DNA of 48,388 nt from Podaxis mareebaensis. Its lineage: Eukaryota > Basidiomycota > Agaricomycetes > Agaricales > Agaricaceae. The stretch covers positions 1 to 48,388 of the forward strand of contig JAEUWP010000225.1 of NCBI GenBank assembly GCA_018524725.1, given 5' to 3'. The position numbers and the translations under genes are program-made. The notes below the pieces were generated by a model. That model did no database searches and was not told the origin of the DNA. It saw only the letters and a program-made list of their open reading frames with translations. Below, piece by piece: positions 1 to 2,086 of this stretch. The number at the start of each line of letters is the position of its first letter. The stretch's first letter is position 1.

Positions 1-415
1 CGGAATCATAAATGTGGCCAAACCTAGCCCAAATGTAGGTATAACCCTGACCTTTATTGAAAAAAGCCTTAGAATAAGCGCCGTGTTATTTTTAGCCAGC
101 GTCTCGAAATGTAGGTCATTTTCCAAGTGTCACCTAGGTGACGTCACCCGATCACGTGAGTAGCATCACGTGCCCGGACGACGGCTCGAATTATCCGGTA
201 AGAATTTCTCGTGTCGGTTATTTTTATCCGATCTCGATCGCGACGTCATCGATCGAATCCCGGATCAATTCTATCATTCCTAATCGGGAGATCGTCGTCC
301 GTTTCGACAAGTAGTAGGTATCGTGCTACGCCTCGCGGGCGTAGACCTACATGATAGGTAAATCGATATCAGACTTTCTATCGTTATCGATAGAAAGCGG
401 CGGAACAAGGTAAAC

Positions 416-492
416 AACTGCAAATGCGCCTGATGAGTCTATAAGTAGACGAAATTCGCGGGGAGAAATCCCAATGAATTGCGCCTGCAGTT
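416..492 (+). ncRNA. Type I hammerhead ribozyme, copy 1
   Basis: All catalytic parts are present in order. The CUGAUGA box is at 430-436, stem II is GUCUA/UAGAC (437-441 with 446-450) closed by UAAG, and GAAA is at 451-454. Stem III starts UUC (455-457) and returns GAA (476-478), with an inner GGGA-GAAA-UCCC hairpin at 461-472. The cleavage triplet is AUU, so the scissile bond lies between 480 and 481. Stem I is GCGC/GCGC (426-429 with 481-484), then an internal loop AAAU/CU, then AACUGC/GCAGUU (416-421 with 487-492). The internal loop in stem I opposite loop II is where natural hammerheads make their tertiary contact. Activity is inferred, not shown. Confidence 0.9.
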
Positions 493-516
493 CATCAGTG
501 AGCTAACTCACATAGC

Positions 517-530
517 AACCCCTAACCCCT
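517..530 (+). repeat. Telomere-like CCCCTAA tract 1
   Basis: The tract reads AACCCCTAACCCCT, about two units of the TTAGGG-type repeat with its C-rich strand on plus. It begins 36 bases after the cleavage site of the first hammerhead and is preceded by a small hairpin (GTGAG/CTCAC, 498-511). It separates the two retroelement remnants. The orientation means a chromosome end would lie to the left. Confidence 0.65.
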
Positions 531-852
531 CTTTCTCCCATGCCAGCACCTGCCGATAGCGTCTACCTGCGCGTCGGTCAAAGAGAGCGTCCTATGGACG
601 GACGCTCAACGGGCGCCTCGTAAAATACGGAGCGCCAGTGGTAAGCGCGCGCTTATTTTATTCGAACTTTAGTATTTTGCAAGAATTAGTTTTTATACCC
701 TATTTATAATACGGTCCGCGTACCGAGCGTCAATCGGATTGACGCCGACTCCATCGGGACGATCTCCGGATAGGATAGTCCCCTCGATTTTACTATCGAG
801 ACATCGTCCACTCGGGTGGACGCGATGGATAGCCATCTAGATAGATAACGAG

Positions 853-934
853 CTACGTAGAGCGCCTGATGAGTCTATATAAGACGAAACGGGCAGTCGT
901 CGAGGTCTCCCCTCGACACCGTTGTGCCAAGTAG
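853..934 (+). ncRNA. Type I hammerhead ribozyme, copy 2
   Basis: CUGAUGA lies at 866-872. Stem II is GUCU/AGAC (873-876 with 882-885) with an AUAUA loop, and GAAA is at 886-889. Stem III pairs CGG (890-892) with CCG (919-921) and contains an inner GUCGAGG/CCUCGAC-type hairpin. The cleavage triplet is GUU, placing the cut between 923 and 924. Stem I is GCGC/GUGC (862-865 with 924-927, one G-U pair), an internal loop GUAGA/CAA, then CUAC/GUAG (853-856 with 931-934). The core is shared with copy 1, but loops and outer stems differ by compensated changes, which argues for selection on structure rather than a chance match. Confidence 0.9.
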
Positions 935-969
935 TCCGGTACTCATCGTTGTCTTTTATTGCACCACTG

Positions 970-988
970 CCCCTAACCCCCCTAACCC
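970..988 (+). repeat. Telomere-like CCCCTAA tract 2
   Basis: The tract is CCCCTAACCCCCCTAACCC, roughly three imperfect CCCTAA units. It starts 46 bases after the cleavage site of the second hammerhead and directly abuts kinase coding sequence on its right. On the minus strand it is GGGTTAG-like and follows the broken kinase gene in the direction expected for a telomere added to a broken end. Confidence 0.7.
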
Positions 989-2086
989 ATGCATGTTCTG
1001 ATACGGCCACCAAACCGAGGGTCATCAAGACTGCCCCAGAATTCCAGCCTCGGAACAGCTGGATAGCGTGTATTCCCGTGTATTGCCTGCAAGATCTCCT
1101 GTTCTGTCCAACGACGATTTTGCCTGATATACTGATCTTTGACGACCCATCGCACCGAGGCATCATTGTTACCGTCGCCACATATGAATACATGACTACG
1201 TCCGCCAAAAGGATGGTTCGAGTAGTGGAGACGGGCAGTCGGCAATATCTTACCCGCTGGAGTCGTGATATCGAAGCGGATGGCACCCTTGACCCTGATT
1301 CTGGACCTTTGCAGTGTCATCTCACGAGCGCCTTGCTGATCGTCATTAAGGTACTTGACGACAGCTTTGAGGAGTGGCTCATAATCCACCCGGTCTTTGA
1401 GCTGGAGCTTCTTGACGCCGCAAGCACTGCAGATCAGAAAGACAAGGTCATTAGCATTGATGAGAAGGCCAAGAGTCGAGATGAGGTCAGGGCGGGCGCT
1501 GAGGAGGTATGTAGCGTAGCTGACAGCCCGGTGGATATGGTCTTCTTCATTCACTCCAGCAGATTTATACTTGATCGCAATTTCAAGTGAGCTCCAGTGG
1601 AGCGGAGGTTTCGGCTCGGGGTCGGCAAGCGCAAGGGAATAAGCGACAATGTCCGGTTTGCACTGTGTGGTGGTGGGATGATCAGCCGGAGGGTGGTTAC
1701 TGTGTACCATGAATGCAATCTCTATCCACAACGCGTTAGACCTAAGCTGACTGAAAGGTTTTAGACATACTCTGTTGGGGTAGAGCATTCAGGAAACCCT
1801 GGACCATTGTAATAAAGTCGCTTGCAGACCCGAACACTGACGAACTTCGAGGATCCTTTTGTGAACCCTCGGACGTCTTGTGCCTGCTACGTGCTTTTAC
1901 GTTGTTTGACGGGGCTATTGCGACCCTCCAGGCACCGAGGAACTCGTAGAAGTCATCTATGTCAATATCGCAGATGGGAGGCATGTTGGTGACGAGCTTC
2001 ACACGATCGTGCCAGGGATAGTGGGCTGCGACCTTTGTGACCGGAGTGCTAATGAGGTCTTTGTTCTCGTCTTTTGCGGCGGGCAT
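989..2086 (-). pseudogene. FunK1-type fungal protein kinase, broken at its 3' side
   Basis: The product starts at 2086 (MPAAKDENKD) and continues through a PDIVA segment, a W..LEIAIKYK segment and a VVKDQY...RWTEQEIL segment followed by YPAVPRLEFWG. These are landmarks of the N-terminal half of the FunK1 kinases that are expanded in Agaricomycetes. The catalytic core (HRD and DFG region) should follow, but the frame runs straight into the telomere-like tract at 988, so the kinase domain is lost. Around 1745-1785 the frame changes; this could be a very short intron or a frameshift, and I favour a lesion because only ~25-29 bp would be removed. Inferred to be non-functional. Confidence 0.75.

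Follow-up and report, generated by a model that had tools for sequence, protein, structure and literature searches.

Coprina is a fungal clade of endonuclease-deficient Penelope-like elements (PLEs). The name is used in PMC6515669. Endonuclease-deficient PLEs are reported in fungi as a clade of their own, and priming from exposed chromosome 3′ ends is described for such PLEs (PMC3846280). Terminons, the giant endonuclease-deficient PLEs of bdelloid rotifers, carry reverse-complement telomere repeats just downstream of a hammerhead ribozyme at their 3′ ends and attach through them to exposed G-rich telomere repeats; most copies are 5′-truncated by telomere repeats, and head-to-tail arrays are possible (PMC6431247, section 8). 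PMC12477314 gives a similar account of Terminon attachment and lists basidiomycetes as PLE hosts. One review calls the hammerheads of PLEs and Terminons minimal, with a role that is unknown, and suggests that PLEs or Terminons mobilise animal retrozymes (PMC7761336), and a paper on a lizard PLE suggests a protein-assisted hammerhead (PMC11167929). Among the accessible parts of open papers, those on mushroom genomes included, we found no description of a fungal ribozyme-tract pair. A Terminon-type 3′ design and its priming model are not new, and endonuclease-deficient PLEs are known from fungi. Where the first-pass annotation of this DNA had proposed a new mechanism, the same design and priming model had already been published for the rotifer Terminons (PMC6431247).

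The window analyzed here is one whole contig, C228, 48,388 nucleotides long, of the 36.95-Mb Podaxis mareebaensis assembly (429 contigs). One protein encoded in it matches its closest relatives at 45% over 93% of its length, and among named genera Lyophyllum, Sphagnurus and Hermanssonia come closest, at 52-64% over roughly a quarter; this is agaricomycete-like, with no entry that is nearly identical. One end of it carries the following features:

1 to 75, plus strand: 3′ end of family D, 100% to D reference 369-443, adjoining element B on its outer side and without a ribozyme.
84 to 518, plus strand: partial copy of element B, its non-coding 3′ region, with relatives on contigs C128 (90%) and C411 (79%).
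418 to 490, plus strand: predicted type I hammerhead of element B, with its core CTGATGA at 430 and its predicted cut at 480/481.
519 to 529, plus strand: telomere-like tract CCCCTAACCCC, beginning 38 nt past the predicted cut of hammerhead B.
532 to 969, plus strand: 5′-truncated copy of element A that ends at a C-rich tract; 532-965 are 92% to A reference 279-714.
853 to 934, plus strand: predicted type I hammerhead of element A, with its core at 866 and its predicted cut at 923/924.
970 to 988, plus strand: telomere-like tract CCCCTAACCCCCCTAACCC, 46 nt past the predicted cut of hammerhead A, at the junction to older chromosome sequence.

We consider it probable, in a single judgement with the overall explanation developed below, that positions 84-988 are two partial retroelement copies stacked at a chromosome end and that positions 1-75 are a third addition, from another family. 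The two pieces had been read before as successive additions to one chromosome end, and the anatomy of the window looks so. The earlier reading also placed a tract after each hammerhead in the same orientation, which holds, at distances of 36 and 46 bases, of which the second stands and the first becomes 38. Sequence common to other contig ends stops at position 992, and from 993 nothing is shared in the first 2.5 kb compared. On the inner side of the junction lies an open frame of 268 amino acids (982-1788, minus strand) that has no Pfam match at E 0.01. By element mapping, 3′ pieces of element B are also present on C295, C183, C300 and C199.

Both predicted ribozymes have the makeup of a type I hammerhead, with a CUGANGA and GAA core, three helices, an NUH cut site and an open stem I. 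Stems I, II and III were parsed as four pairs each in A and B, and all of these pairs form. At the gathering score, Rfam has no match anywhere in the window; with a relaxed threshold, the two best matches within 300-1100 are to RF00008, at 852-894 (E 0.0086) and 419-460 (E 0.27), neither of which reaches the gathering score. Folded as a single strand, the B sequence takes the hammerhead form (z -4.8, 0/200 shuffles as good), and the minimum-energy fold of the A sequence is one other than the hammerhead (z -2.7, 1/200 shuffles as good). The stronger evidence for these predicted hammerheads, relative to Rfam and the lone folds, is comparative. In 25 fetched contig regions there are 40 hammerhead pattern matches, two of which lack a GAAA partner and were discarded as chance. 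Stems could be parsed in 37 of the 38 that were kept; the remaining one, at C128 510, has lost its cut site. All 37 parsed hammerheads have a U at the cut, 35 have CTGAWGA, 32 have GAA, and stems I, II and III mostly have all four of their pairs. Some copies are probably dead, because GAA is altered in five of the 37 and CTGANGA in two. Across 14 aligned hammerheads, pairing is found in 99.4% of 166 cells, compared with 18-56% in a control in which the partners were slid by 1-3 columns. Three of 12 pairs have changed on both sides in this alignment, a count equalled by 67 of 500 shuffles, and the cells with two-sided change number seven, with a shuffled mean of 1.9 and 0/500 shuffles as high. 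Pairing is kept across three families, A, B and C, with stem III reading ACGG/CCGT or a close variant in A and C and ATTC/GAAT in B.

For the tracts we used a strict pattern, CCC+TAACC+ or CC+TAACCC+, and a looser one, CC+TAACC+. The looser pattern has four matches on the plus strand of the window, two of them being the tracts listed above, and in positions 1001-48388 the strict pattern occurs once on the plus strand and never on the minus strand. Two tracts that lie 38-46 nt past two ribozymes are not there by chance. The element arrays, 27,769 bases in all, contain 30 strict tracts on the element sense strand and 0 on the other; beyond the arrays (138,128 bases) there is one on each strand. 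Spacing from cut to tract is 38-46 nt in 18 of the 19 tracts found, with one at 52 nt, so that the distances, which the first-pass annotation had proposed to compare across copies, turn out to be nearly fixed.

A DNA search with positions 1-1010 of the window gave 46 matches. An exact 14-base ribozyme pattern has 33 matches genome-wide, versus one for the reversed control, and 29 of the 33 lie within 4 kb of a contig end, a zone that makes up 9.3% of the assembly (P 3e-26). In all 29, on 16 contigs, the ribozyme side faces inward. This is the location of endonuclease-deficient PLEs and Terminons, at chromosome ends in one orientation, found here at contig ends that are presumed to be chromosome ends. 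Pieces of A, B, C or D, tails included, occupy 24 contig ends, all in the same sense. The order of ribozyme and tract thus recurs at other scaffold ends, with terminal, inward-facing ribozymes in 29 of 33 cases and a strict tract at 27 of 52 complete 3′ ends, and the copies are not mostly internal and tractless. The earlier reasoning on orientation, that the sense 3′ end must abut CCCTAA on the centromere side, was right. The assembly has no long telomere arrays for the patterns tried and no match to an exact CCCCTAA repeat; a gapped telomere pattern has four matches, one at a contig end. Contig ends are therefore only presumed chromosome ends, and the telomere unit is deduced from the short tracts.

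The other four of the 33 ribozymes are an exception and form one internal cluster on C411, 14.6-15.6 kb from the contig start. Its copies are much diverged, the longest A copy being 74% to the A reference and the B copy 79%. The cluster (14.4-15.9 kb, in region L031, C411:9000-18999) is the only internal one, has LINE-like frames nearby and is perhaps the relic of an old chromosome end. Changes of C>T plus G>A are in excess there (74 to 28). We rejected such decay as a mark of this cluster alone, as the same excess occurs in the copies on C210 (43:8), C313 (30:10) and C289 (37:14). A second exception is found at the left end of C133, where an A piece of 116 nt faces outward, off the contig, which places some 27 kb outside an A copy. 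Region C133:1-1500 (L067) and C421 (L039) have a common outer A-copy boundary, CCCCTAACC, and are 97% alike over 116 nt and different beyond, as if different additions had been made on one older end, or as if this were a full-length 5′ end.

Families A, B and C are related and share a 3′ end design of ribozyme, spacer and tract. The stretches common to their copies are shorter than about 0.8 kb and non-coding. Family D is a terminal repeat with up to 443 shared nucleotides, without ribozyme or tract, whose constant 3′ end, GCCTTAGAAT, is followed without a gap by a copy of A, B, C or D or by other sequence. Its six copies on five contigs (window 1-75, L035 1-616 and L037 615-1057 among them) all lie near contig ends in one orientation. 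A short repeat like CTACTTAAACTGAGAAAAACCGGTATGAAT is found at four places on three contigs (L037 1185, L038, L043), and in at least two of these it comes straight after an A tail. On C183 (L034 95-3177), about 3 kb separate an outer B tail from inner C and A copies. This intervening sequence has stop-to-stop frames of 430 amino acids (overlapping the tail) and 264 amino acids with no Pfam match; it is sequence caught between units, of the sort described for Terminons.

Mapping of the A, B, C and D reference stretches on the first 6 kb of the 25 contig regions gave 60 segments. The regions, C411 included, had been turned beforehand so that the ribozymes read forward, with the left end of C133 outside the set, and 0/60 segments are reversed. 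The ends of segments come from BLAST alignments, with a possible error of a few bases. Of the 54 mapped A, B and C segments, 52 are complete up to a shared 3′ end, 31-53 nt past the cut, and another element comes next after 23 of these 52, forming head-to-tail arrays. A strict tract follows 15 of the 23 3′ ends that precede another element and 12 of the 29 that precede other sequence. The 25 of 52 without a strict tract imply that pairing may use a short C-run only, or that the primer is not necessarily telomeric. At C417, C112, C138 and C342, a bare C-run or CCCCTA stands at the 3′ end before other sequence, suggesting that the C-run is encoded by the element RNA. The 3′ ends thus follow the Terminon order of a hammerhead and then reverse-complement telomere repeats, with the identity of the telomere unit taken from the tracts.

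The 5′ ends behave differently from these constant 3′ ends. Measured from the cut, the 41 internal 5′ ends are spread over -669 to -9; six of them are not true ends because they fall at the limits of the reference stretches, and a strict tract lies within 30 nt upstream of 15 of the 41. As in Terminons, 5′ truncation, telomere-like repeats at the 5′ end and head-to-tail arrays occur together. Seven of the 41 form a truncation hotspot 9-14 nt before the cut, at the helix III C-run of the A and C ribozymes. In family C this run is CCCCAACACC, and its copy ends in TTGGGG; at two of the seven (C193, C128), only CCCC stands between the units. A bolder reading, which we regard as speculative and unlikely, is that the short non-coding RNAs of the three families, which would each end in a full-size hammerhead and a C-rich tail, act as trans templates that lengthen chromosome ends, a telomere-specific non-autonomous retrozyme in which the copy of the helix III C-run would provide a built-in priming end.

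The explanation that we favor, and consider probable, is serial end-primed reverse transcription at chromosome ends, probably by an endonuclease-deficient PLE. The 3′ end of the element RNA would consist of the hammerhead, a spacer of 38-46 nt and a C-rich stretch whose complement is the G-rich strand of the telomere. A chromosome 3′ end that is bare or has been shortened would pair with this C-rich stretch and serve as primer for a reverse transcriptase, which most likely comes from an endonuclease-deficient PLE. Synthesis that stops early would leave the outer (5′) end truncated, and this end could then be lengthened by telomerase or by the next element RNA. Repeated rounds would build head-to-tail arrays that all point the same way. 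Constant 3′ ends on varied flanks, scattered 5′ ends, a single orientation and tracts at junctions are what end-primed reverse transcription predicts. Against it weigh the 25 complete 3′ ends that have no strict tract, the internal cluster on C411, the outward-facing A piece on C133, the lack of long telomere arrays for the patterns tried, and the weak searches that found no PLE enzyme. The genome has a telomerase gene, recognized by a telomerase RNA-binding domain on C35, and telomerase can therefore add repeats to truncated ends.

Among the rival explanations, the one that survives best is a subtelomeric satellite, in which the units no longer retrotranspose and are spread by ectopic recombination or break-induced replication, with their orientation kept. 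Under recombination among chromosome ends, too, the units would read the same way at every end. This rival is favored by the D piece of about 75 nt, whose copies on five contigs are 99-100% alike, and by the outer A-copy boundary that C421 and C133 have in common. However, the constant 3′ end meets many flanks, with non-element sequence after 29 of the 52 complete 3′ ends, and apart from the elements, 10 of 24 regions have no sequence in common with any of the other 23. Recombination would also be expected to leave breakpoints common to both sides, whereas these copies combine a constant 3′ side with a scattered 5′ side. We judge this alternative to be unlikely and retain serial end-primed reverse transcription.

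To look for the enzyme we used a PLE consensus that performs well on PLE-like proteins in the protein database, where 7222 of 7983 scored candidates have E <= 0.001. Neither this consensus nor a conifer PLE, both weak searches, found a PLE reverse transcriptase in the genome: the conifer PLE had no match, and the consensus had four, at E 0.2-0.9, all of which we rejected on reading their translations. Those on C151 and C280 belong to one and the same LINE, the one on C429 resembles an enzyme of a mitochondrial intron, and the one on C246 is a short unrelated frame. The RVT_1 search scored 150 of 501 candidates, all at 98 bits or more. With RVT_1, two PLE fragments reach 44 and 48 bits, too low for a PLE to enter this scored set. 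The 780-nt RVT_1 matches on C274, C65, C178 and C33 were rejected as PLE enzymes; they are closely alike and LINE-like, and presumably belong to Tad-like LINEs. A walk by DNA search upstream of the longest A and C copies reached no coding region, and at E 1 Pfam matched none of seven frames from three contig ends. The full-length copy suggested beforehand as something to look for, with a PLE reverse transcriptase and without GIY-YIG, was not found at the limited sensitivity of these searches. Absence of a PLE enzyme is not established, because PLE scores fall below all of the scored RVT_1 matches and because fungal endonuclease-deficient PLEs form their own clade.

These results bear on a further rival, in which short non-autonomous RNAs are copied by telomerase or another cellular reverse transcriptase with no PLE involved. 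Telomerase is present, no PLE enzyme was found, and no frame of at least 100 amino acids lies wholly within an A, B or C stretch in the nine of 25 regions for which frames were listed. Against this, maybe only the 3′ parts were assembled, and a PLE at 44-48 bits is beyond the reach of an RVT_1 list in which 150 of 501 candidates were scored. We also know of no case in which telomerase copies hundreds of bases of another RNA. Copying without a PLE therefore seems to us distinctly improbable, more so than the satellite. Our searches for PLEs were weak, so membership in the PLE kind is something that we infer.

The first-pass annotation raised a link between the self-cleaved 3′ end of the RNA and telomere priming. 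In such a mechanism the RNA would be cut by its ribozyme, and the new 3′ end, held near the telomere, would prime copying or set its start. The nearly fixed spacing between ribozyme and tract (18 of 19 tracts at 38-46 nt past the cut) would suit such a link, but 0/54 mapped segments end at the cut, and 0/41 5′ ends begin there, which contradicts it and makes this mechanism very improbable. The cut was likewise rejected as the 5′ end of full-length copies. Complete copies extend 31-53 nt past the cut, so the copied template kept the stretch downstream of it. By the mapping of the junctions, copying began downstream of the ribozyme. For priming, a short G-rich 3′ end seems to be enough. As the template was not cut at the ribozyme, cleavage more likely serves to trim readthrough or tandem transcripts than to produce the end used for priming. 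An assembly artefact, in which ordinary interspersed repeats merely break contigs, is just as improbable. Repeats commonly lie at contig ends, and an assembly effect could account for terminal position but not for orientation: breaks at interspersed repeats give mixed orientation, as in the RVT_1 control, where 14 of the 150 listed matches (of 501 candidates) begin in the first 4 kb of a contig, eight on the plus and six on the minus strand, whereas the terminal ribozymes agree in 29 of 29.

The Podaxis elements extend the Terminon 3′ design of ribozyme, spacer and telomere-complementary tail to an agaricomycete, in whose 37 Mb 37 ribozymes were parsed and 54 segments mapped. Provided that the species grows in culture, a fungus could be used to test what the ribozyme and telomere pairing contribute to terminal retrotransposition. 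The system also bears on how retroelements and telomerase divide the upkeep of chromosome ends.

Set beside known systems, the elements probably represent the Terminon-like, endonuclease-deficient PLEs in a fungus; full-size hammerheads and short non-coding copies set them apart. They resemble Terminons in the 3′ hammerhead, the short reverse-complement telomere repeats just downstream, the head-to-tail chains, the 5′ truncation by telomere repeats, the other sequence caught between units and the presumed attachment to G-rich overhangs (PMC6431247). They differ in that the host is a fungus, the tracts are of CCCCTAA type, the shared stretches are below about 0.8 kb and non-coding, and our weak searches found no reverse transcriptase. 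The Podaxis hammerheads have a looped helix III, whereas those of PLEs and Terminons are described as minimal, without helix III or the loop contacts (PMC7761336). Like the endonuclease-deficient PLEs that PMC3846280 reports from fungi, the elements are telomere-associated and in a fungal host; unlike in those PLEs, a reverse transcriptase was not found here by the weak searches. Retrozymes are likewise short non-coding retroelements with hammerheads. Here, however, no unit is bounded by two hammerhead cuts, as the 5′ ends scatter and 0/41 lie at the cut, and the copies sit at contig ends with a telomere-like tract.
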